Positions 21,503 through 31,931 of a stretch of 50,853 nt of DNA are shown here, piece after piece. Positions within the stretch are counted from its first letter, which is position 1. Every line of letters starts with the position of its first letter. Position numbers and translations under genes: made by a program. This DNA is from Nitratireductor aquimarinus (GTDB lineage: Bacteria; Pseudomonadota; Alphaproteobacteria; Rhizobiales; Rhizobiaceae), in the NCBI RefSeq assembly GCF_017255295.1, contig NZ_JAFKDE010000001.1:1-50853 (forward strand), read 5' to 3'. The notes under the pieces are model-generated. The model saw only the letters and a program-made list of their open reading frames with translations, had not been told where the DNA came from and searched no databases.

Positions 21503-21853
21503 TCAGCCAGCCGCCGCGACGACGATGATCTCGACCGTGTATTCGGGCGTTGCCAGTGCGGACTCGCCGCAGGCGCGCGCCGGTGCGTGGCCGGGAGCCA
21601 CCCATGCGTCCCACACGTCGTTCATCTCGGCAAAGTCGTTCATCGAAGCGAGCCAGATGGTCGCCTGCAGGATGCGCGACTTGTCGGAGCCGTTCTGCTC
21701 GAGAAGGGCGTCGATCTTGGCCAGAATGTCCTTGGTCTGCGTGGCGACGCTTGCGCCCGGCGTGCCGACCTGGCCAGCCAGGTAGATGGTGCCGTTGTGA
21801 ATGACGGCCTGGCTCATGCGGGTGCCGGTGTCGACGCGTTTGATATCGGACAT
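21503..21853 (-). CDS. RidA / YjgF / YER057c / UK114 family protein
   Basis: A 116-residue trimeric-fold protein of the Rid superfamily. It shows VDTGTRMSQAVIHNGTIYLAGQVG and the C-terminal R-x-C-x-E-S-A-L-A pattern (ARACGESALATPEYTVEIIVVAA). In RidA proteins the Arg hydrolyses reactive enamine/imine intermediates from amino-acid deamination. The upstream gene encodes a FAD amino-acid oxidoreductase that would produce such imines, so this is probably a dedicated detoxifying partner in a two-gene operon. The gap between the two genes is only 11 bases. Confidence 0.9.
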   Translation of the reverse strand: MSDIKRVDTGTRMSQAVIHNGTIYLAGQVGTPGASVATQTKDILAKIDALLEQNGSDKSRILQATIWLASMNDFAEMNDVWDAWVAPGHAPARACGESALATPEYTVEIIVVAAAG

Positions 21854-21864
21854 GTTTTTTCCTT

Positions 21865-22971
21865 TCAGGTCTTGATGAGGCGGTGTGGCGCAAGTGCCTG
21901 CACCACGGTTTCAGCGAGGCCGGACTTGCGACCGGCGCACAGGTCGGCTGCGAGCGCGGAAAGGGCAGGCGAGGTCTGTACGCCATAGCCGCCCTGGCCG
22001 GCCAGCCAGAAAAAACCCTCCGCATCCGGCGCGAAGCCGACAGCGGGGGTGCGATCGGGGAAGAAGCTGCGCAGGCCCGCCCAGCTCCGTTCAATGCGTG
22101 TCACAGGCACGGTGACGGCCTGTTCAAAGCGATGCAGGCCCTCGGCCAGCACCATGTCGTCGGGCCAGGCGTCGAACGGCTCTGACGGATCTTCGTCAGC
22201 CGGCGAAACCATCAGCTTGCCCGCATCGGGCTTGGCGTACCAGCCTTCGCCCGCGCAGGCGAAAAGCGGCCAGCGCGTGACGTCGTGCCCCTCGGGTGCG
22301 GGCAGGATCACGGCCGAGCGGCGCATCGGCGTCAGGCCGAGCGGCTGCACACCGGCAAGCTTCGCGACCTCGTCAGCCCATGCGCCTGCGGCGTTGACGA
22401 TGATGGGTGCGGAGAACGAGCCCTGCGGGGTTTCAAGCGTCCACACGCCATCCGCACGCGAAATGGCGGTGACGGGGGCCTTGTTGACGATGCGGCCGCC
22501 CTGATGGCGCAGCATCTTCGCAAAGCCCTGCAGCAGACGGTCGACATCGATGTCCTGCGCGCCTTCCTCAATGGCGGCCGCCACGATGTTTTCGCGGCGC
22601 AGAATGGGCACGCGCGCAACCGCAGCGTCCGCGTCGAGCCGCTCCATGCCCGTCGCGCCTTCGAGGATCTTGTCCAGCGCGCCGACATGTTCCTCGGTCG
22701 CCACATAAAGCAGGCCGCGCGGAGTGAGCAGGCTTTCGTCAGAAATGCCTTCCGGCTCCTTGAACACCGGTTCGGCAGCCGCATTGAGGGCGCGCAGGGT
22801 GTCGTTGCCGTAATTGCGGATGTAGATCGCAGCCGAGCGGCCGGTGGCGTGATAGCCGATGGCCTCTTCCGTCTCCAGAACGGTCACGCTGGCGTCCGCC
22901 GCCATGCGCGCGCCCGCGCCGATGCCTGCAATGCCACCGCCGATGACGATGATGTCGGATGTCTCGCTCAT
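21865..22971 (-). CDS. FAD-dependent amino-acid oxidoreductase (DadA / glycine-oxidase family)
   Basis: A 368-residue flavoprotein. The start at 22971 (MSETSDIIVIGGG) has GAGGGGAAGC upstream; the frame extends to 23079. The Rossmann FAD site is IIVIGGGIAGIGAGARMA with the ribose Glu in VTVLETEEAIGYHATGRSA. The substrate-side segment APIIVNAAGAWADEVAKLAG and the C-terminal FFWLAGQGGYGVQTSPALS are typical of the DAO/DadA family. It should oxidise an amino acid or N-alkyl amino acid to an imino acid. The RidA protein encoded next supports an imine product. The exact substrate is unknown. Confidence 0.88.
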   Translation of the reverse strand: MSETSDIIVIGGGIAGIGAGARMAADASVTVLETEEAIGYHATGRSAAIYIRNYGNDTLRALNAAAEPVFKEPEGISDESLLTPRGLLYVATEEHVGALDKILEGATGMERLDADAAVARVPILRRENIVAAAIEEGAQDIDVDRLLQGFAKMLRHQGGRIVNKAPVTAISRADGVWTLETPQGSFSAPIIVNAAGAWADEVAKLAGVQPLGLTPMRRSAVILPAPEGHDVTRWPLFACAGEGWYAKPDAGKLMVSPADEDPSEPFDAWPDDMVLAEGLHRFEQAVTVPVTRIERSWAGLRSFFPDRTPAVGFAPDAEGFFWLAGQGGYGVQTSPALSALAADLCAGRKSGLAETVVQALAPHRLIKT

Positions 22972-23363
22972 GCTTCCCCTCAAGCTGTTTTGCCGCCGCT
23001 CGCGACGTCCGAATGTGCCTGTGCCTCTGCGGGCACATGATTGCCCCGTGCGTCTGCGGGCGCGGGGAGATTTTGTCAACTCAAACGCTGCCGGTTGGGC
23101 GATTTAGCGACGGCACACAGATAACGGGCATGAAGCGAAAGCAATAGGCTCAACGCGGTCGGCGCATTATGGCACTGCGCCGGCGCGACCCGTCTTTCAC
23201 ACACAAACCGGGTGGGGAAGAACGCCGTTCCCCCGTGCTGCGGGGACTGGTCTCGAAGCCGGCTTTGTGTGATCATTTACCGGGGAGAATGGGAGAACCT
23301 CAACAAGATGCGTAAAGCACAGGCTTCGCCTGACTGGCGGTGTGCAGGGCGGAGTGCGGGTTA
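22972..23363. other. Divergent intergenic region: twin hairpins and a short leader frame
   Basis: There is no conserved gene in this 392-base gap. Near the oxidoreductase end lie two related palindromes, described separately (23020-23067). CCCCG...CGGGG around 23232-23247 can fold. A short open frame precedes the permease-kinase gene (23308-23364). Promoters for the two divergent units must lie here, but no -35/-10 pair was convincing. Confidence 0.5.
23020..23067 (-). repeat. Two tandem hairpins sharing a GTGC-TCTGCGGGC core
   Basis: TGTGCC (23020-23025)/TCTGCG/GGCACA (23032-23037) is one hairpin. CCCCGTGC (23044-23051) with GCGCGGGG (23060-23067), one G-T pair, is the second. The units GTGCCTCTGCGGGCAC (23021-23036) and GTGCGTCTGCGGGCGC (23048-23063) differ at two positions and are 27 bases apart. 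They lie 50-96 bases upstream of the FAD oxidoreductase start and could be leader-RNA structure or operators. Confidence 0.45.
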
Positions 23364-23364
23364 G
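23308..23364 (+). CDS. Possible leader peptide upstream of the permease-kinase gene
   Basis: An 18-codon frame, MRKAQASPDWRCAGRSAG, has GGGAG 12 bases upstream. Its TAG stop (23362-23364) shares its final G with the GTG start of the permease-kinase at 23364, a stop-start overlap that allows coupling. Such frames also arise by chance in GC-rich DNA, and the peptide has no run of one residue that would suggest attenuation. Confidence 0.25.
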   Translation: MRKAQASPDWRCAGRSAG

Positions 23365-25994
23365 TGGAAACACCGCAATCGCCTGCCTTACGATCCTATC
23401 ATTCATGGATCGCCAATGAGACGCTGGAGGACTATTCGCTGCGCTATGCGGCGCGGTCGTTCCGGCGCTGGTCTCCGTTCGTCATCGCCAACACAGCGCT
23501 CGGCGGCATCTCGTTTCTGGCTCTGGAGGCAATCGGCGGGGCGATCACGCTCAGCTACGGGTTCGCCAATGCGTTTCCCGCCGTTCTGATCACCTGCCTG
23601 TTCGTCTTCGTGACGAACCTGCCCATCGCCTATTATTCCAGCCGCTACAACATCGACATGGATCTGCTCACGCGCGGAGCGGGGTTCGGCTATATCGGCT
23701 CCACCATCACGTCGCTGATCTATGCGACCTTCACCTTCATCTTTTTCGCGCTCGAAGGCGCGATCATGGCGCAGGCGCTGAAGCTGTTCGCGGATGTGCC
23801 GCTGGTGCTGGGCTACATCATCTCATCGCTCGTCATCATTCCCATCACCTTCATGGGCGTGACGATGATCAGCAAGTTGCAGATGGTCACCCAGCCCATC
23901 TGGATCGCAATGCTGCTTGCGCCTTTCATCTACATTGCGGTCGCCCATCCCGAAACGCTCGATCAGTGGATGGCGTTTGCCGGCAGCGAAACGCCGGATG
24001 GCGGGTTCGATGTGCTCGCCTTCGGTTCGGCCATCGGTGTTCTGTGCGCGCTCTCGATCCAGATCGGCGAGCAGGTGGATTATCTGCGCTTCCTGCCCGA
24101 CAAGACGCGCGAAAACCGCTGGCGCTGGTGGGCGGCGGTCATCTCCGCCGGTCCCGGCTGGATCGTGGTCGGCGGTTTCAAGATCCTGTGCGGCAGTCTT
24201 CTGGCCGTGCTTGCGGTCTCGGCCGGCCTCTCGCCATCGACGGCGCTCGAACCGATCCACATGTATATCAAGGCCTATGAATATGTGAGCGACGATCCGC
24301 GCACCGTGCTGGCGCTGGCGGCGATCTTCGTTCTCATTTCGCAGGTAAAGATCAATGTGACGAACGCCTATGCCGGCTCGCTCGCCTGGTCCAATTTCTT
24401 CTCGCGCGTCACCCATTATCACCCCGGCCGCGTGGTCTGGCTGATCTTCAACATCCTGATCTCGCTGCTTCTGATGCTGCTCGGCATCTTCCAGACGCTT
24501 GAGCTGGTGCTGGCGGTCTATTCGGTCATCGCCGCCGCCTGGATCGGCTCCATCTTCGCCGATCTCGCCATCTTGAAGCCGATGGGCGTCAGCCCGCCCT
24601 TCACCGAGTTCAAACGCGCCTATCTCTACGATTTCAATCCGGTCGGCTGCGGGTCGATGGCGTTTGCCTCGCTGTTCGCGATCATCTGCTTCATGGGCAG
24701 TTTCGGCGATCTGGCGGAAGCCTATGCCGCCCCCATCGCCTTCTTCACCGCGCTTTCGAGCGCGGTGCTGATCGGCGTGGCGACACGCGGCCGCTATTAT
24801 CTCGCCCGTCCGCGCGTGCCGCTTGCCGAGCCCGACAAGCCGGTGGTGCGCTGCGAGATCTGCGAACTGGAATATGAGCGGCCGGACATGGTGCACTGCA
24901 CTTTCTACCGGCGTCCGATCTGCTCGCTCTGCTGCAGTCTCGATTCACACTGCCACGATGCCTGCAAGGTTCCCGGCGCAAATCTGGAAGCGCCGCATTA
25001 TCTGGGCCGCGCCCTGCGCAGCAAGATCGCGCCACGCATGACGCAGCGCCTGCTCAAGGTGAGCGGCGTTCTGTTCTCGCTGGCGGTGATGACGGCTGCC
25101 GTCTTTCTGCTGACCTACCGCTTGATCGAGCCGACCGCGCTTCAGCCGCATGTGGAAAGCGGCGCGCTTCTCCTGCGGGTGTTTCTGGCGCTCCTGCCGC
25201 TGCTCGCCATCGGCGCGTGGTGGATCGTTCTTTCGCACGAAAGCCGCGAGCTTGCGGAGCGCGATCTGGTGACATCGCTTGAAAAGCTTCGGCAGGCGCA
25301 GCAGGAGCTCGCCTCCAATGAGCGTCTGGCGGCAATCGGTCAGATCACCGCCACGGTCAGCCATGAGCTGCGCAATCCGCTGGGCACGATGGTCACCTCC
25401 GCCGATATTCTGCGCCGCTCGCTCAAGAACGCGGATGAGCCCGTCACCGGCGAATTGCAGCGCCTGCAACGCAATGCCTGGCGCTGCGTGCGCATCATCG
25501 AGGATCTTCTGGACTTTTCACGCAAGCACGCGCCCGTCATGTCGCCCGTCGCCATCGACCGCTGGGTCAAACAGCAATTGAGCGAAGAGGATCAGGAGAT
25601 CGCGCATCTCATCACGCTCAGGCTTGATGCCGGGTGCGACGTGCTTGCCGATGCAGAGCGTCTGCGGCAGGCCTTCTCCAATGTTCTGCAGAATGCGGCG
25701 CAGGCCTGCGAGGAACGCGGGAAGCAAAGCGGTCAGATCATTATCTCCACGCAGCGTCTGCGCGACCGCGTCTACCTGTCGGTGTCCGATAATGGCGGCG
25801 GCATGTCTCAGGATGTGGCCGAGCGCGTGTTCGAGCCGCTGTTCAGCACCAAGGCGTTTGGCGTCGGGCTCGGCATGCCGCTCGTCAAGCGCATCATGGA
25901 GCAGCATGGCGGCGATGTGCTCATCGAAAGCCAGAAGGGTGTCGGCACCACCGTATCGCTCGTTCTGCCATGTGCGGGAGCGCGCAAGGCATGA
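23364..25994 (+). CDS. NCS1-type permease fused to a histidine kinase (putative amide/nucleobase transceptor)
   Basis: A 876-residue fusion with GTG start at 23364 preceded by GGAG at 9 bases; the frame also allows 23340. Residues about 1-490 form a twelve-helix NCS1 (cytosine/allantoin/hydantoin permease-like) domain, with FVIANTALGGISFLALEAIGG in TM1 and VNVTNAYAGSLAWSN-type sequence (INVTNAYAGSLAWSNFF) in the second half. A Cys/His-rich segment (497-534) follows: C-x2-C, C, C-x2-CC, HCHDAC. Two more helices lead to a coiled coil (about 640-655). The HisKA domain has His667 in TVSHELRNPLGTMV and the HATPase has NVLQNAAQA, DNGGGM, GVGLGMPL. The next gene overlaps its stop (ATGA). Whether it transports, senses, or both is unknown. 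Confidence 0.9.
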   Translation: METPQSPALRSYHSWIANETLEDYSLRYAARSFRRWSPFVIANTALGGISFLALEAIGGAITLSYGFANAFPAVLITCLFVFVTNLPIAYYSSRYNIDMDLLTRGAGFGYIGSTITSLIYATFTFIFFALEGAIMAQALKLFADVPLVLGYIISSLVIIPITFMGVTMISKLQMVTQPIWIAMLLAPFIYIAVAHPETLDQWMAFAGSETPDGGFDVLAFGSAIGVLCALSIQIGEQVDYLRFLPDKTRENRWRWWAAVISAGPGWIVVGGFKILCGSLLAVLAVSAGLSPSTALEPIHMYIKAYEYVSDDPRTVLALAAIFVLISQVKINVTNAYAGSLAWSNFFSRVTHYHPGRVVWLIFNILISLLLMLLGIFQTLELVLAVYSVIAAAWIGSIFADLAILKPMGVSPPFTEFKRAYLYDFNPVGCGSMAFASLFAIICFMGSFGDLAEAYAAPIAFFTALSSAVLIGVATRGRYYLARPRVPLAEPDKPVVRCEICELEYERPDMVHCTFYRRPICSLCCSLDSHCHDACKVPGANLEAPHYLGRALRSKIAPRMTQRLLKVSGVLFSLAVMTAAVFLLTYRLIEPTALQPHVESGALLLRVFLALLPLLAIGAWWIVLSHESRELAERDLVTSLEKLRQAQQELASNERLAAIGQITATVSHELRNPLGTMVTSADILRRSLKNADEPVTGELQRLQRNAWRCVRIIEDLLDFSRKHAPVMSPVAIDRWVKQQLSEEDQEIAHLITLRLDAGCDVLADAERLRQAFSNVLQNAAQACEERGKQSGQIIISTQRLRDRVYLSVSDNGGGMSQDVAERVFEPLFSTKAFGVGLGMPLVKRIMEQHGGDVLIESQKGVGTTVSLVLPCAGARKA

Positions 25995-27190
25995 CTGATC
26001 GTGAACTCGACCTCCCCGCAGAAGTCATCGGCGAACATCCGTTGCGTGAAACCACACCGGCGGAAGACCATTGCGTCCTGATTGTTGACGATGACGAGGA
26101 TTTCGCCGCCAGCCTGTCGGGCCTCCTGAAACTCGAAGGCTACAGGATCGTGGTTGCCCACGATCCGCAGGCAGCACTCGCCTTCCTTGAAGAAGCGCGG
26201 ATCGCGGTCGCCCTGGTCGATGTGCGGCTCGGCACCGGCAATGGCGTCGATCTGGTGCGCCAGATCCGCCAGCGCGAACCGGACGTGGTGTGCGTGATGG
26301 TCACCGCCTACGCTTCCATCGATACTGCCGTCGAGGCGTTGCAGGCCGGCGCCTATGACTATCTCTGCAAGCCGTTTCACAGCGAAGACCTGCTTGCCAC
26401 GCTCGCCCGCTGCTTCGAGCGCATCCGGCTTCTGGAAGAAAAGCGGCTGGCCGCCGAGCGGCTCGGGCAGAAGCAGCGCATGGAGGCGATGGGCCAGCTC
26501 ACCAGCGGCATCGCGCATGACTTCAACAACATACTCGCCGTTCTCCTGAGCAATCTGCGCTGGCTGGAAGAGCGGCTGGCCGACCAGCCGGAACTGGCCG
26601 AACTGGTCACCGATGCGCTCGAGGCCACCAGGTCGGGTTCCGAACTCACCGACCGCCTGCTGCGCTTTGGCCGCCAGCGCGCGAAAGACATTGCCGTGGT
26701 GCAGCTTGGCGAGGCGCTTCCGCCCCTGATGCGGGTTCTGGGGCGCACGCTGGGGGATACGGTGTCCGTTTCGCTCAATGTCGCAGACGGGTTGAACAGC
26801 GTGCTCATTCCCGCCGGTCAGCTGGAGCCGAGCCTCGTCAATCTGGCGCTCAATGCGCGCGATGCGATGCCGGGCGGCGGGAGCCTGCATTTCGACGCGT
26901 CGAATGTGATCGTTCGCCCGGAGGATGCGCGCGTCGCTTCGGGGCTGTTACCGGGGCGCTATGTGCTCCTGTCGGTGCGCGATACCGGTCATGGCATGCC
27001 GGTGGCGGTGCGCCGCCGCGCGCTCCAGCCCATGTTCACCACCAAGCCGCCGGGGCAGGGCAGCGGTCTTGGCCTGTCGATGGTGGATGGCTTCGTGCGG
27101 CAGGCCGGTGGCCGTCTCGGCATTCTCAGCACGCCGGGCAAGGGCACCAGCGTCAATCTGTATTTGCCGGCGCACTATTCCTCGGACTGA
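25991..27190 (+). CDS. Receiver-histidine kinase protein (REC-HisKA-HATPase)
   Basis: A 399-residue protein, reading from the ATG at 25991 that overlaps the upstream stop as ATGA. The receiver domain (about 27-140) has acidic residues in VLIVDDDED, phospho-acceptor D77 in VALVDVRLG and K127 in YLCKPFH. A short helix follows, then HisKA with H176 in GQLTSGIAHDFNNILAVL, and an HATPase domain (NLALNARDAM, DTGHGM, GQGSGLGLSMVDG). Having the receiver first and a complete kinase after it suggests an intermediate that receives phosphate from, or is tuned by, the permease-kinase. No HPt domain is present. Its 3' end overlaps the convergent OmpR-type gene by 16 bases. Confidence 0.9.
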   Translation: MTDRELDLPAEVIGEHPLRETTPAEDHCVLIVDDDEDFAASLSGLLKLEGYRIVVAHDPQAALAFLEEARIAVALVDVRLGTGNGVDLVRQIRQREPDVVCVMVTAYASIDTAVEALQAGAYDYLCKPFHSEDLLATLARCFERIRLLEEKRLAAERLGQKQRMEAMGQLTSGIAHDFNNILAVLLSNLRWLEERLADQPELAELVTDALEATRSGSELTDRLLRFGRQRAKDIAVVQLGEALPPLMRVLGRTLGDTVSVSLNVADGLNSVLIPAGQLEPSLVNLALNARDAMPGGGSLHFDASNVIVRPEDARVASGLLPGRYVLLSVRDTGHGMPVAVRRRALQPMFTTKPPGQGSGLGLSMVDGFVRQAGGRLGILSTPGKGTSVNLYLPAHYSSD

Positions 27191-27912
27191 GGCGCGAACA
27201 TGTAACCGACACCGCGAATGGTCTTGATAAACTGGGTGTCGCGGGCATTGTCGCGCAGCTTGCGGCGGATCTTGCCGATCATCACGTCGATGCTGCGGTC
27301 ATAGGGGTTCCAGTTGCGGTTGGCGACGATGTCGAGGATCTGCTCGCGCGAAAGAACACGCCCGCGCCGCTCCACCAGCGCCGCCAGAAGCTGGAATTCC
27401 TGGCTCGTCAAACGCACCGATTCTCCCCGGGGTGAGGAAAGCTGATGCCGTGCGGGATCAAGTTGCCAGCCGGCAAAGCACATGATCGGCGAGCGGCTTT
27501 TCTCCTGCGGTTCCGGCATGCTGATGCGCTTGGCGAAGCGGCGCATGACGGTGCGGATGCGGGCCAGAAGTTCGCGCGGCTCGAACGGCTTGGTCACGTA
27601 ATCGTCTGCCCCCAGCTCCAGGCAGACCACCTTGTCGATCGTGTTGTTCTTGCCTGAAAGCATGATCAGCGGCAGGTCGTGCTGGGCGCGCAGGCCACGC
27701 GCCAGCGAGACACCGTCTTCGCCGACCGGGAAGGTCAGATCGAGAATGACGAGATCGAAGTCCTCATCCGCCATTGCGCGGCGCATGGAGCGGCCATCCT
27801 CGGCGCTTGTCACGGCATAGCCTTCGCTCGTGAGGAAACGCTGAAGAAAGCGCCGAAGACGCTGATCATCATCGACAACAAGTACGCGATGTTTTTCGTC
27901 CGTGATCCCCAT
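27175..27912 (-). CDS. OmpR/PhoB-type response regulator
   Basis: A 245-residue regulator. The receiver (about 8-125) has VLVVDDDQRLRRFL, phospho-acceptor D58 in LVILDLTFPVGEDG and K in YVTKPFEPRELL. The winged-helix output domain (about 140-240) has VRLTSQEFQLLAALVERRGRVLSREQILD, the recognition helix DRSIDVMIGKIRRKL and the wing IKTIRGVGYMF. It converges on the kinase pair and faces away from formamidase, so the shared 376-base gap (27913-28288) could hold binding sites for both its own promoter and fmdA. It is the obvious output of the kinase system and the likely regulator of the amide genes, inferred from position. Confidence 0.92.
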   Translation of the reverse strand: MGITDEKHRVLVVDDDQRLRRFLQRFLTSEGYAVTSAEDGRSMRRAMADEDFDLVILDLTFPVGEDGVSLARGLRAQHDLPLIMLSGKNNTIDKVVCLELGADDYVTKPFEPRELLARIRTVMRRFAKRISMPEPQEKSRSPIMCFAGWQLDPARHQLSSPRGESVRLTSQEFQLLAALVERRGRVLSREQILDIVANRNWNPYDRSIDVMIGKIRRKLRDNARDTQFIKTIRGVGYMFAPQSEE

Positions 27913-28288
27913 GGCTCATACGATAGTCGCAAACGGTTGCATCGGTCGAGGAGGGAGTTTGCTCCGGTCTTTTGGAAAATGCGCGTTTTGTATCCGGCCA
28001 AAGGTAACCGGGGCGGGCAAGGCGCTGGCGGCTCTGGATGCGCCCATGGCAAATGACTGAAATTCAGAGCTTATTTCAGGCTGTTCAAGCGAAAACGAAT
28101 TCTCCGGAATGTCCCTGGGCGGTTACAAAAAATTACAAAGCGGGCGTTCTCCAGAGCCAATCGGCTTACAGTCCAGACCTAATCTTCTCCGGCACGGTTT
28201 CGTCCGGTCGCATCTTGCGGGCGGGCGCAAAAATGACGGGGGGCTCGACACTGGAACCTCCGACTGGCCGTTCAAGAGGAGGAGACCT
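27913..28288. other. Divergent control region between the OmpR-type regulator and fmdA
   Basis: There is no conserved gene in this 376-base gap, although frames in phase with fmdA run through part of it. The notable element is a direct repeat at 28123-28139. A possible -10 (TACAGT, 28167-28172) lies about 35 bases beyond it. The long leader before fmdA contains several Cys-poor open triplets but no recognisable riboswitch. Confidence 0.45.
28123..28139 (+). promoter_or_regulatory. Candidate OmpR-family box: TTACAAA direct repeat
   Basis: Two identical heptamers TTACAAA (28123-28129 and 28133-28139) are 10 bases apart start to start. OmpR/PhoB regulators bind tandem direct repeats of about 10-11 bp upstream of the promoters they activate. 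The site lies 150 bases before the formamidase start and on the regulator's side, so it suits control of fmdA. Inferred from spacing only. Confidence 0.4.
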
Positions 28289-29515
28289 ATGCCTAAAACA
28301 GTGTTTTCAGTCGATCTCAACAAGGCGCCCGAGGATCAAGCGATCAAGACGCACAATCGCTGGCATCCCGACATTCCGATGGTTGAGACCTTCAAGCGCG
28401 GTGAGGTGTTCCGCGTCGAGTGCTACGACTGGACCGGTGGTCAGATCGGCAACAATGACAGCGCCAACGACGTGCGCGATGTCGACCTGACCCGCGTTCA
28501 CTATCTGAGCGGTCCGTTCGGTTTCGAGGGCGCAGAGCCAGGAGATCTGCTGGTCGTCGACATTCTCGATATCGGCGCAATGCCTGAATCCGAATGGGGC
28601 TTCAACGGCCTGTTCGCCAAGGAAAATGGCGGCGGCTTCCTGACGGAGCACTATCCGAACGCAACCAAGTCGTGCTGGGATTTCCAGGGCATTTACACGA
28701 CCTCGCGCCACATTCCGGGCGTGCGCTATCCGGGCATCATTCACCCGGGCCTGATCGGCTGTCTGCCCGATCATGCGCTTCTGGCCGAAGCAAACCGCCG
28801 TGAGGAAGAGCTGGTTTCGACCGATCCGAACCGGGTGCCGCCGCTGGCCGCACTGCCTTATTCCGACACTGCGCTCATGGGCCAGATGTCGGGTGATGCA
28901 GCACGCAAGGCGGCGGAAGAAGCGTGGCGCACCGTGCCGCCGCGCGAACATGGCGGCAATTGCGACATCAAGAACCTGTCGCGTGGCTCCAAGGTCTATT
29001 TCCCTGTCTATGTGAAGGGTGGCGGTCTCTCCATGGGCGACATCCACTTCTCGCAGGGCGATGGCGAAATCACCTTCTGCGGCGCCATCGAAATGGCCGG
29101 TTGGATCGACATCAGCGTCGATGTCATCAAGGGCGGCATGGCGAAATACGGTGTCGTCAACCCGATCTTCAAGCCGAGCCCGATCGATCCGCATTTCGAT
29201 GATTACCTGATCTTCGAGGGCATCTCGGTCGATGAGCACACGGGCGAACAGTATTATCTGGACGCCCATGTGGCCTATCGCCGGGCCTGTCTCAACGCCA
29301 TCGAGTATCTGAAGAAGTTCGGTTACACGGGCGAACAGGCCTACAGTATCCTCGGCACAGCGCCGGTGGAGGGCCGAATAGCCGGCATTGTGGACATACC
29401 GAATGTGTGCGCCACGCTGGCCATTCCGACAGCGATTTTCGACTTCGACATCAATCCGAACTCGACCGGGCCGACCAAACAGGTCTCCGGCGTGGATGTC
29501 GCGCGAACAAGCTGA
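28289..29515 (+). CDS. fmdA: Formamidase
   Basis: A 408-residue enzyme of the acetamidase/formamidase (FmdA/AmdA) family, hydrolysing formamide to formate and ammonia. The ATG at 28289 has AGAGGAGGAG immediately upstream. It begins VFSVDLNKAPEDQAIKTHNRWHPDIP and has the conserved ECYDWTGGQIGNNDSANDVRDVD, FLTEHYPNATKSCWDFQGIY, REHGGNCDIKNLSRGSKVYFPVYVKGGGLSMGDIHFSQGDGE and the C-terminal DFDINPN. Length matches Methylophilus FmdA. Codon use appears strongly biased and the ribosome site is excellent, suggesting high expression. Genes for AmiS and FmdB follow on the same strand. It probably supplies nitrogen from short amides. Confidence 0.96.
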   Translation: MPKTVFSVDLNKAPEDQAIKTHNRWHPDIPMVETFKRGEVFRVECYDWTGGQIGNNDSANDVRDVDLTRVHYLSGPFGFEGAEPGDLLVVDILDIGAMPESEWGFNGLFAKENGGGFLTEHYPNATKSCWDFQGIYTTSRHIPGVRYPGIIHPGLIGCLPDHALLAEANRREEELVSTDPNRVPPLAALPYSDTALMGQMSGDAARKAAEEAWRTVPPREHGGNCDIKNLSRGSKVYFPVYVKGGGLSMGDIHFSQGDGEITFCGAIEMAGWIDISVDVIKGGMAKYGVVNPIFKPSPIDPHFDDYLIFEGISVDEHTGEQYYLDAHVAYRRACLNAIEYLKKFGYTGEQAYSILGTAPVEGRIAGIVDIPNVCATLAIPTAIFDFDINPNSTGPTKQVSGVDVARTS

Positions 29516-29598
29516 GTGGCCTGGAGCATCGGGCGGGGAGGCGCAGGCCGCCTCCCGGTTGTTCCGGTGCTCCGTCGGGCCGTTTTCAAAAGAAACGA

Positions 29599-29622
29599 GT
29601 GGGACAGCCGGGGTGGGACCCG
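29599..29622 (+). promoter_or_regulatory. Hairpin between fmdA and amiS
   Basis: AGCCGGG and CCCGGCT pair around a short GTGGGA-type loop within the 139-base gap between fmdA and the channel gene, ahead of a GGGAGGAAGAG ribosome site. No U tract follows. It is probably an mRNA-processing or partial attenuation structure lowering channel expression relative to the enzyme. Confidence 0.45.
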
Positions 29623-29654
29623 GCTGAACCCGCCTTTCGGGAGGAAGAGCTGCC

Positions 29655-30167
29655 ATGCTGCTCGGGTTTGCCTTGCTTTACGTCGGCGCCGTCCTGTTTC
29701 TCAACGGGCTGTGGCTGATGGGAAAGATCGACGACAAGGAAATTGTCGTCATCAATGTGGTGTCCGGCTTCGTCACGCTCTGCGTCGCGCTGGCTTCGGC
29801 ATTCGGCGCTGCGGCGGATGCCGCGTCGATCAAGTCTGCGGCGCTGACGCTGCTGTTCACCACCACCTATCTCTGGGTCGCCTACAACCGCGTGGTCGCG
29901 GTGGATGGCCGCGGGCTCGGCTGGTTCAGCCTGTTCGTGGCAATTACCGTCGTGCCCATCGCGATTGAAGGACTGGCCGGCGCGCAGACCTTCACCGACA
30001 CCTGGCTCGGCCTCAACTGGGCCATCTGGGCGGTGCTCTGGTTCATGTATTTCCTGCTGCTTGCCCTCAAGCGTCCGATCCTGCAGGCCACTGCGGTTGT
30101 CACGCTCCTCACGGGCATCATCACCGGCTGGCTGCCGGGGTTCCTGCTGCTTCAGGGAATGCTCTGA
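29655..30167 (+). CDS. AmiS/UreI family short-amide or urea channel
   Basis: A 170-residue protein with six hydrophobic helices, matching the AmiS/UreI family (about 170-200 residues). Family features are MLLGFALLYVGAVLFLNGLWLMG at the N-terminus, LLFTTTYLWVAYNRV in the middle (with the conserved W-x-A-x-N) and GLNWAIWAVLWFMYFLLLAL in helix five. These hexameric channels pass urea or aliphatic amides. Between formamidase and FmdB, formamide or similar is the likely solute. A GGAGGAAGAG ribosome site lies just upstream of the ATG. Confidence 0.92.
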   Translation: MLLGFALLYVGAVLFLNGLWLMGKIDDKEIVVINVVSGFVTLCVALASAFGAAADAASIKSAALTLLFTTTYLWVAYNRVVAVDGRGLGWFSLFVAITVVPIAIEGLAGAQTFTDTWLGLNWAIWAVLWFMYFLLLALKRPILQATAVVTLLTGIITGWLPGFLLLQGML

Positions 30168-30229
30168 GCTTTTTCGTGCGGCGGCGTCAGGCCGCCGCAC
30201 CATGCGAGACAGAATTTTCGGAGACCAAC

Positions 30230-30535
30230 ATGCCGCTTTACAATTATGTTTGCGAAGATTGCGGACCTTTCGACGAGTGGACGTCCATGGCTTATGCAGG
30301 CAATGCATGCGCCTGCCCGAGCTGCCAGACGCCGAGCAGTCGCGATGTGGCCGCGCCAAGCCTCAGCCTCATGAACGGCACGCTCCGGCGCGCGCTGGCG
30401 CGCTCGGAAAAAAGCGGCAGCGAGCCGCGCGTGGTCAAGAAGGAACATCTGGCCGGTTGCGGCTGTTCGCTGTGCAATATCGGCAAGAAGGGCCCGCCTT
30501 CTCCACGCAAGAAATGGATGATCGGCCACTGCTGA
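30230..30535 (+). CDS. fmdB: FmdB family zinc-ribbon protein
   Basis: A 101-residue protein. The N-terminal FmdB zinc ribbon reads MPLYNYVCEDCGPFDEW with C8 and C11, and a second Cys knuckle ACACPSCQTPS (C27, C29, C32). The middle is basic and the end carries another Cys group, AGCGCSLCNIG, followed by a Lys/Pro-rich tail. FmdB was named as a putative regulator of formamidase in Methylophilus; its molecular role is unclear. The start at 30230 gives the canonical M-P-x-Y. It is last in the plus-strand amide operon, followed by a strong terminator. Confidence 0.93.
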   Translation: MPLYNYVCEDCGPFDEWTSMAYAGNACACPSCQTPSSRDVAAPSLSLMNGTLRRALARSEKSGSEPRVVKKEHLAGCGCSLCNIGKKGPPSPRKKWMIGHC

Positions 30536-30582
30536 GTTCGCGCTCGCGTACACAGGCCTTCAGGCCGATTCAGGGTGCTTTT

Positions 30583-30635
30583 CAGGCAGACGGCGCCCCC
30601 GCATTCCGGGGGCGCCGTCCGCCTGTTTCATTTTG
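30583..30635 (+). terminator. Strong intrinsic terminator after fmdB
   Basis: A long stem, CAGGC-(A)-GACGGCGCCCCC paired with GGGGGCGCCGTC-(C)-GCCTG (30583-30625), is followed by TTTCATTTTG. It ends the formamidase operon 48 bases after the fmdB stop. Confidence 0.88.
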
Positions 30636-30731
30636 TCGCCAGATTTGTTGAAACGGTGCGCTTTATGATTTCTGCAAATTGGCGTAATTCCTTCTACAAG
30701 GGGCAAGTTATTGATATTTTAGAGTAATTTT

Positions 30732-31931
30732 ATGATTCATAAGCTTTGGCGTCGTGCGGCGTCTTTCAGCATTCTGGCGGTTGTCGCTGCACCGGTTCTT
30801 TTTGCTCTTGAGCCCCATTCGCCCGCGCGGGCTGCGGATGTCAGTCAGTTGGCAGAGCCAGTCGCGACAATCGAAGCCGAAGCGCAGCGGCTCATGCAGG
30901 ACCACGATCTTCCCGGTCTTGCAATCGCGGTCACGGTCGGGGGGGAACATCGCATCTTCAACTACGGCGTCGCTTCGCGTGAAAGCGGTGCGGCGGTGGA
31001 TGACGACACGCTGTTCGAGATCGGCTCGATCAGCAAGACCTTCACCGGTCTGCTTGCGGCCTACGCGCATGTGCAGGGAAAGCTCTCGCTTTTCGACGAG
31101 GTCAGTTCGCGCCTGCCGGCGCTTGAAGGAAGCGCTTTCGATGCCGTGCGCATTCTGGAACTGGCGACCCATACGAGCGGGCTCGAACTCTTCCTGCCTT
31201 CGGGCGTGGACAGTCAGGACGCGCTTGTCGCCTATTGCAGGGGCTGGGAGCGTCGCTATTCGCCGGGTACGGAGCGCACCTATTCCAATATCGGCATCGC
31301 GCTTCTCGGTTCCATCGCGGCCGACGCCCTGCAGCGGGACTATGACGATGCCCTCGCAAATCTGCTCCTGCCGAAGCTGGGGCTCGCAAACACCTATACG
31401 CAGGTTCCTCCTGACCGGATGAAGGACTATGCGCAGGGCTATACGACGGAGAACGAACCCGCCCGCCTGTCAGACAATGCGCTGGCCTCTGCACCCTACG
31501 GCGTCAAGACAACGGCGACAGATCTCATCCGCTATGTCGAGGCGCATATGCAAAGCGGGGATCTGGAGCCGGATATGCAAAGCGCCATCGGTCAGGCGCT
31601 CACCGGCTATTACAAGGCCGACGCCATCACGCAGGATCTGGTCTGGGAGCAATATGCCTATCCGGTCAGCCTGAAGCGTCTGCTCGATGGCAATTCCAGA
31701 AGAATGGCGCGCGACGATGTTCCTGCCATGCATCTGAAGCCGCCATTCCCGCCGCGCCGTAAGGTGCTCGTCAACAAGACCGGTTCCACGAGGGGCTTCT
31801 CGGCCTATGTGGCGTTTGTGCCGGGGCGCAGGATCGGCGTGGCCATTCTGGCCAACAGGAATGTGTCGGTGCGTGACCGGGTGCGGGCAGGGTATCGCAT
31901 TCTTGCAGCCCTGAAGCAGGCACAGCCGTGA
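30732..31931 (+). CDS. Class C (AmpC-type) beta-lactamase
   Basis: A 399-residue exported serine hydrolase. The signal peptide is MIHKLWRRAASFSILAVVAAPVLFA, with an Ala-rich cleavage region near PARAAD (residue 35). All three active-site motifs are present: S99-I-S-K102, Y184-S-N186 and K349-T-G351. Length is typical of class C enzymes, which hydrolyse cephalosporins in the periplasm. No ampR regulator is adjacent, so induction by that route is not evident. The upstream 100 bases are AT-rich. A DD-peptidase or esterase of the same fold cannot be excluded, but the motif set and size favour a true beta-lactamase. Confidence 0.9.
   Translation: MIHKLWRRAASFSILAVVAAPVLFALEPHSPARAADVSQLAEPVATIEAEAQRLMQDHDLPGLAIAVTVGGEHRIFNYGVASRESGAAVDDDTLFEIGSISKTFTGLLAAYAHVQGKLSLFDEVSSRLPALEGSAFDAVRILELATHTSGLELFLPSGVDSQDALVAYCRGWERRYSPGTERTYSNIGIALLGSIAADALQRDYDDALANLLLPKLGLANTYTQVPPDRMKDYAQGYTTENEPARLSDNALASAPYGVKTTATDLIRYVEAHMQSGDLEPDMQSAIGQALTGYYKADAITQDLVWEQYAYPVSLKRLLDGNSRRMARDDVPAMHLKPPFPPRRKVLVNKTGSTRGFSAYVAFVPGRRIGVAILANRNVSVRDRVRAGYRILAALKQAQP

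Follow-up and report, generated by a model that had tools for sequence, protein, structure and literature searches.

Which protein tells a bacterium that formamide is at hand? The question is raised by a locus in a 50,853-nucleotide stretch of Nitratireductor aquimarinus DNA (contig NZ_JAFKDE010000001.1, positions 1 to 50,853; hereafter referred to as the window), where a permease fused to a histidine kinase, a second kinase with a receiver domain and an OmpR-type response regulator stand next to fmdA, amiS and fmdB. A sequence-only reading of the window had proposed that the permease domain, labelled NCS1, detects an amide or nitrogenous base and that the cascade switches on these three genes. 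Our analysis supports this interpretation as a whole, and the permease-kinase (the proposed sensor) beside formamide genes with a conserved site points to a widespread, apparently undescribed small-amide/urea sensing system. For the locus itself, the likely function in our view is that of a self-contained switch governing the use of nitrogen from formamide (short-chain amides).

A permease-kinase, two further signalling genes and fmdA-amiS-fmdB

Open reading frames and domain matches bore out the gene order described from the sequence. The permease-histidine kinase fusion (23364-25994, plus strand, 876 residues) carries HisKA and HATPase_c matches at 25338-25973 and an NCS1-like fold and profile, and the kinase-box strings SHELRNP, NAAQAC, DNGGGM and GVGLGMP were all found in it, as were the receiver strings that were sought. 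An in-frame GTG lies earlier, at 23340, yet relatives align from about 23364. The REC-kinase (Response_reg, HisKA and HATPase_c; 25991-27190, plus strand) begins within the sensor gene's stop codon, in an ATGA overlap that is read directly at 25991-25994. On the opposite strand and divergent from fmdA lies the response regulator (27175-27912), whose receiver (Response_reg, 96.5 bits) and winged helix (Trans_reg_C, 90.2 bits) place it in the OmpR/PhoB group.

The formamidase gene fmdA (28289-29515, plus strand) matches NF045496 at 756.9 bits (cut-off 500) and PF03069, and is followed on the same strand by amiS (29655-30167), encoding an AmiS/UreI-type amide/urea channel (PF02293, 201.2 bits; the sole match to this family in the genome), and fmdB (30230-30535), encoding a small zinc-ribbon protein (PF09723, Zn_ribbon_8, 41.9 bits, cut-off 34.4; TIGR02605, 42.2 bits, cut-off 31.3). 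FmdA hydrolyses formamide to formate and ammonia, and AmiS/UreI proteins let small amides or urea pass. The strong terminator claimed to end this set is upheld by folding, as a GC-rich hairpin 3' of fmdB (30583-30625, plus strand) that is probably a terminator (folding energy of 30540-30640, -56 kcal/mol; z = -6.5 relative to shuffled sequence), though its T run is weak.

Relatives of the sensor and their gene neighbourhoods

The sensor family is large: one genome collection yielded at least 582 related stretches. The sensor was found in 55 of 398 genomes of a phylum sample and in 27 of 385 genomes of a class sample (partial matches counted in both), the latter including the window's own genome, a partial match (G335) and a weak, kinase-less match (G147). 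Locus stretches spanned about 8-10 kb per side (shorter where a contig ended, and in L140 and L149), and neighbour genes were called by tblastn, with cut-offs that missed diverged regulators in the second of the three arrangements described below. The best 80 of the at least 582 stretches, hereafter the 80 closest loci, are biased to near relatives, and several come from the same genomes as the congeners; cyanobacterial records occur among them as well (L086, L097, L100, L106 and L108). In these 80 loci, fmdA was present in 69, and fmdA, amiS or a urt gene in 72: 46 had fmdA, amiS and fmdB; 18 fmdA, fmdB and urt; three fmdA and urt; three urt; two all four (where urt stands for a 32% UrtB-like permease, probably an unrelated one); and eight none. 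Seven of these eight are stretches of at most 15 kb with a contig end near, and the eighth is N. pacificus, the remainder of whose gene set lies on another contig.

The class sample is less biased than the 80 closest loci. Outside the window's own genome it held 26 loci, of which 11 carried fmdA, fmdB and urt, nine urt only and six none of these genes; amiS was seen in none. The six comprise three loci of a Tistrella type, the full-length L148, one partial locus and the G147 match. Homologues mostly unlinked to amide genes had been named as the outcome that would speak against the proposed system, and the linkage instead held for fmdA in 69 of the 80 closest loci and for fmdA and/or urt in 20 of the 26 class-sample loci, while fmdA alone, in 11 of the 26, falls below half. 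Since fmdA is present in only these 11 and amiS in none, the family as a whole is linked no less to urea/short-amide transport than to formamidase, and what is sensed may be urea or a group of small amides.

Several comparisons gave this linkage a background. Around 20 of the 28 other kinase matches in the own genome (about 10 kb each), neither fmdA nor amiS turned up, and a UrtB-like permease was seen once. The 22 FmdA matches of at least 580 bits fell in 21 class-sample genomes, 12 of them within 10 kb of a sensor, and the sensor occurred in 17 of these 21 genomes against 10 of the 364 others (Fisher test, kinship uncorrected). Eight congeners have the sensor, six with the full fmdA-amiS-fmdB set, one with urt and one being N. 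pacificus, and a ninth (G009) is sensor-free; the sensor stretch of N. aquibiodomus is 99% identical to that of the window. Annotation was available for 12 of 14 plasmid records, and in 11 of these 12 the sensor has urtABCDE, a formamidase gene or a urease cluster close by: urtABCDE in S. meliloti and Roseomonas; urtABCDE-fmdA-fmdB in Chelatococcus, Methylobacterium, Peteryoungia, Paracoccus liaowanqingii and SC52; fmdA-fmdB in Methylovirgula; fmdA-amiS-fmdB in Paracoccus TOH and P. kondratievae; and a urease cluster in Mitsuaria. The Tistrella plasmid record had no urt, formamidase or urease gene near the sensor.

The sensor tree (104 sensors, 79 with FmdA; midpoint root; congeners, L153, L154 and sensors with a stop or shorter than 800 residues left out) splits into three arrangements by gene context. 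Arrangement I, represented in the class sample by the window only, combines REC-kinase and OmpR-type regulator with amiS and fmdA. Arrangement II, mostly betaproteobacterial records, also has amiS and fmdA, and its sole scanned locus (L077) has a REC-EAL gene after the sensor and a LuxR-type gene between sensor and amiS. Arrangement III has urt, and a scanned Chelatococcus member carries a hybrid kinase with a C-terminal receiver and a REC-LuxR regulator; some UrtA matches here are 39-42% identical to the query, and 'urt' may then stand for a related amide/amino-acid transporter. Loci without fmdA, amiS or urt are scattered over all three groups.

This linkage also bears on another account of the locus, in which the permease-kinase is functional as a transporter and its kinase acts on some other target, the OmpR-type regulator answers another kinase, and the neighbourhood reflects clustering of nitrogen metabolism. 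Such an account would suit N. pacificus, where sensor and regulator lie on different contigs, and the four of 21 genomes that have FmdA of at least 580 bits without a sensor. Yet sensor, REC-kinase, OmpR-type regulator, fmdA and amiS are joined in 29 of the 80 closest loci and in rearranged Paracoccus loci, and the comparison of kinase and fmdA phylogenies that had been suggested at the outset shows correlated sensor and FmdA distances (r = 0.68, n = 79, 0 of 999 permutations as high, shared species ancestry uncorrected). We consider this account very improbable.

Two further features of these relatives may be recorded. In the metagenome-assembled genome L047 (the same as G006), the sensor has an in-frame stop near residue 598 with the rest of the set present, which may be an assembly error. 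The Tistrella type (L141, L144, L145 and L163) combines the sensor with a LuxR-type regulator, with no urea or amide genes near, and its named record is a large plasmid.

A conserved direct repeat before fmdA

The operator-like repeat that had been noticed facing fmdA lies at 28123-28137 (plus strand), 166 bases 5' of the gene, and reads TTACAAAAAATTACA, a direct TTACA repeat with a 10-base period. The exact pattern TTACAAAANNTTACA occurred once in the window and once in each of the 29 arrangement-I loci (29/29), and was absent from the other 51 of the 80 closest loci. TTACA-N5-TTACA fell within the last 420 bases in 27 of the 30 regions (window included), and L072, L073 and L112 have it farther upstream, next to the OmpR gene. 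Across 26 ungapped regions, the 13 fixed positions were 100% conserved, and most flanking columns reached 26-60%. A third TTACA at +43 (28166-28170, plus strand; 84-96% per position) and a CCTA at +55 (28178-28181, plus strand; 88-92% per position), perhaps part of a promoter -10 region, stand out as well.

The pattern is also rare genome-wide. The own genome (4.57 Mb) holds one exact site and four at one mismatch, taken up below (reversed control, 0), and with one more free position allowed, exactly one site was found in eight of ten Nitratireductor genomes (two matches in total for the reversed controls), the two genomes without a site being one of arrangement III and one that is sensor-free. 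In N. pacificus (L284/L285), where OmpR-fmdA-amiS-fmdB is split from sensor and REC-kinase, the site is still found 5' of fmdA. In three rearranged Paracoccus loci, fmdA is divergent from the sensor gene and TTACAAAGAATTACA occurs once per locus 5' of fmdA and oriented toward it; because the site thus stays with fmdA at about 4.5 kb from the start of the OmpR gene, it is separable from the regulator's own promoter. Judged by conservation and genome-wide rarity, the candidate operator goes with fmdA, is strictly conserved and exceeds chance expectation. OmpR/PhoB regulators bind direct repeats of about 10-11 bases, and the conserved TTACA repeats, 10 bases apart, form a putative site of this type.

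Arrangement III has a different candidate element. The palindrome TACGTCANNTGACGTA (at most 3 mismatches) was found in 26 of 38 regions between sensor and urtA, against 12 occurrences in the rest of these loci (739,895 bases in total), and the best dyad was present in 23 of the 38 regions against 3 after shuffling, with the consensus drawn from the same regions.

Gene order around these elements varies in some relatives. In L072 (13666-14820) and L073 (7132-8289), a LuxR-type (GerE) gene stands between operator and fmdA, and the operator heads a longer unit. At L077:12727-14004 and L077:8634-9857 lie receiver-EAL (cyclic di-GMP phosphodiesterase type) and LuxR-type genes, and amide sensing may there touch cyclic di-GMP.

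The transporter domain is NCS1-like by fold and remote homology

The N-terminal 640 residues of the sensor gave no match to Pfam or NCBIfam even at E = 10, and PF02133 (NCS1) matched neither the window protein at E = 10 nor any protein of the own genome. A Pfam scan of the 70 members of the sensor alignment returned 28 families, scattered and weak, none in more than six members (best E 0.1); the lowest E value among the 25 families shown was 0.004, in a single member, and these 25 included neither PF02133 nor PF00474 (SLC5, SSF), the remaining three having at most one member each. PF00474 did not match the window protein either. A PDB search with the window sequence found nothing, and with the profile only chance-level zinc-finger matches (E = 1.3 and 3.4); a viral structure library gave only generic permease folds, and PHROGs matched the kinase part only.

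Structure and profiles told more. An AlphaFold2 model built from 59 homologues has a mean predicted local distance difference test score (pLDDT) of 79, with most ten-residue blocks of the transporter domain (about residues 33-475; 23460-24788, plus strand) above 80 and weaker values near residues 340-380. Foldseek against the PDB placed Mhp1 first (E = 2.7e-9) and CodB next (4.3e-9), with Mhp1 and CodB at ranks 1-5 and then other LeuT-fold proteins. In hhalign, the sensor alignment scored 98.4% over 384 columns against 16 NCS1 proteins, only 48.6% against a six-member CodB-like subgroup, and 0.16% against eight SLC5 (SSF) proteins used as a control; SLC5 transporters also have the LeuT fold. 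By our reading, seven of the nine columns invariant in the NCS1 set are kept (R104, G109, G112, G165, D239, R242 and D400 of the window protein), those corresponding to NCS1 G68 and P368 being the two that are not. E131 is invariant in the 70-member alignment; in the NCS1 template it faces Asn102, which we take to correspond to the substrate-site Gln121 of Mhp1.

Because of the fold match to Mhp1 and CodB and the 98.4% profile alignment, yet with no Pfam match, the NCS1 label holds, in the model and in remote homology, as a statement about fold and descent and fails as a Pfam assignment; the original label stands to that extent. An SLC5/Dur3-type urea transporter was considered as the origin of the domain (Dur3 ranked 21st in the fold search) and rejected, with NCS1 ranked first and the SLC5 profile control failing. 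A transporter fold at the N-terminus and a kinase with H, N and G boxes at the C-terminus in one chain make the protein a transceptor in architecture.

An eight-cysteine domain and two helices before the kinase

The sequence-only reading had passed over a cysteine-rich domain (residues 497-534) and two hydrophobic helices that precede the kinase. In the 70-member alignment C497, C500, C512, C520, C523, C524, C530 and C534 are invariant, as are D508, D532 and K535 (domain at residues 497-535; 24852-24968, plus strand). Modelled alone (60 residues), the domain gave modest scores (pLDDT 73.5; predicted template modelling score 0.54), and a fold library returned treble-clef, PHD, RING and FYVE fingers, none significant (best E 0.44), the low-E zinc-finger matches spanning a single CxxC piece only. 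The domain is probably metal-binding; that it is a binuclear metal finger of RING/PHD type is a guess. The two extra helices (residues 566-584 and 606-624; 25059-25235, plus strand) are evident in hydropathy and appear as long helices in the model. The eight-cysteine domain occupies the position of STAC in the SLC5 kinases (PMC13022988; papers here and below are cited from excerpts).

What the sensor may read

The sensor would thus be a repurposed NCS1-like (LeuT-fold) permease that reads its ligand, most likely a short-chain amide and/or urea, through its binding state. This state would be passed by the eight-cysteine, probably metal-binding, coupling domain and the two extra transmembrane helices to the HisKA kinase. 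As gene order and domains suggest, the signal would then reach the co-translated REC-kinase, by way of its receiver, and finally the OmpR-type regulator. Once phosphorylated, the regulator would bind TTACA-N5-TTACA 5' of fmdA and turn on fmdA-amiS-fmdB, whereupon, going by the known functions of these families, AmiS would admit the amide and FmdA would cleave it to formate and ammonia. In the sister clade, the same sensor module appears to be wired to a LuxR-type regulator, with the palindromic site before urtA in many regions.

Several observations weigh against this pathway. NCS1 transporters of known substrate carry nucleobases and hydantoins, not amides. In the class sample, 15 of the 26 loci lack fmdA and all 26 lack amiS in the fetched stretch, and nine have urt without fmdA (two of these contigs stop in or just after urtC and two stretches are short). 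The three Tistrella-type loci and the full-length L148 have no urea or amide genes in range, the three Tistrella-type genomes carrying fmdA on a different contig. N. pacificus (G003) has its sensor and REC-kinase on a different contig from OmpR-fmdA. The own genome has four one-mismatch operator sites elsewhere (C6:109460, C6:253456, C6:259957 and C7:167580), possibly further targets or chance, and a good palindrome is missing from 12 of the 38 arrangement-III regions.

Alternatively, the sensor might read ammonium or general nitrogen status, urea alone, or an NCS1 substrate of the nucleobase/hydantoin type, with the formamide genes as one output among others. Its NCS1 fold, the urt transporters that neighbour it in 20 of the 26 class-sample loci, the one urease cluster and the ammonia repression of the fmd genes of Methylophilus methylotrophus (PMC10781810) would all agree with this. 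Arrangements I and II, however, have formamidase and AmiS without a recognisable urtABCDE cluster, and the exact operator is present in one copy per genome, 5' of fmdA, so that the output looks dedicated; moreover, for the urtBC genes of Bradyrhizobium, which stand beside AmiE and a PF03069 (acetamidase/formamidase) gene, the cargo was argued to be an amide and not urea (PMC3098086). We judge this alternative unlikely. The fmdCABDEF genes of M. methylotrophus likewise combine formamidase with short-amide/urea uptake and are induced by formamide and urea, differing by description in a binding-protein-dependent uptake system and a porin in place of AmiS, and a 'putative positive regulator' is named only (PMC10781810); this induction and the Bradyrhizobium case fit a small-amide/urea sensor.

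Relation to known transporter-fused kinases

Transporter-fused kinases are already known, though few of them have been investigated. CbrA, CrbS and RpuS (SLC5-STAC kinases) similarly join a transporter to a histidine kinase via a small domain and govern nutrient uptake or use (PMC13022988, PMC9100948, PMC5715377), and only two SLC5/STAC members had been characterised before PMC9100948. In contrast, the sensor described here has an NCS1-like domain, an eight-cysteine linker and two hydrophobic helices, and its likely target is amide/urea nitrogen. Ks-Amt5 is alike in that a nitrogen-source transporter has become the sensor of a fused kinase, and differs in its Amt domain, trimeric state and ammonium signal (PMC5764959). 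Mhp1 and CodB share the fold, the profile match and seven of the nine NCS1-invariant columns, whereas the sensor is 18-20% identical to them, lacks a PF02133 match, is fused to a kinase and has the invariant Glu (E131) for the template Asn. In Ectopseudomonas, a hybrid kinase and a LuxR-type regulator accompany a second urtABCDE operon, with locus tags near fmdA, by annotation only (PMC13296017); the excerpts of PMC5424462 and PMC5333837 hold nothing on the sensor locus.

The sequence-only reading knew of no described NCS1-kinase controlling formamidase, and the titles and abstract openings of the open-licence literature, with subscription journals outside this scope, likewise revealed no transporter-fused kinase with an NCS1-like domain or with this gene context. 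The NCS1-like domain is thus apparently new in this context. A wider proposal, whose chances we see as evenly balanced, is that of a large, so far undescribed class of transceptor kinases for urea and short amides, frequent in Pseudomonadota and also found in cyanobacteria, in which an NCS1-like sensor with the substrate-site amide residue changed to an invariant glutamate is coupled to its kinase by a binuclear RING-like finger; these would be the missing regulators of formamide- or urea-inducible fmd/urt operons, with interchangeable outputs (OmpR and direct repeats, LuxR and a palindrome, or REC-EAL). The sensor described here would add the NCS1 transporter family, the small amide/urea substrate class and a metal-finger-like coupling domain to the transporter-fused kinases. 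With a single exact operator in a genome and few steps in the pathway, the locus would be a clean system for studying signalling from transporter fold to kinase, and it could yield a formamide- or urea-inducible promoter.

Flanking genes and other features

No sigma-70 consensus promoter was found in 22500-31500 (1.9 in shuffles), and an Rfam scan of the window returned one tRNA and nothing else. Repeats are present upstream of the sensor gene, which adjoins, at 21503-23079 on the minus strand, genes for a FAD-dependent DAO-type oxidoreductase and then a RidA-like protein. Past the hairpin, the gene at 30732-31928 (plus strand) encodes a class C beta-lactamase-type serine hydrolase (NF033085, 450.9 bits, cut-off 415).

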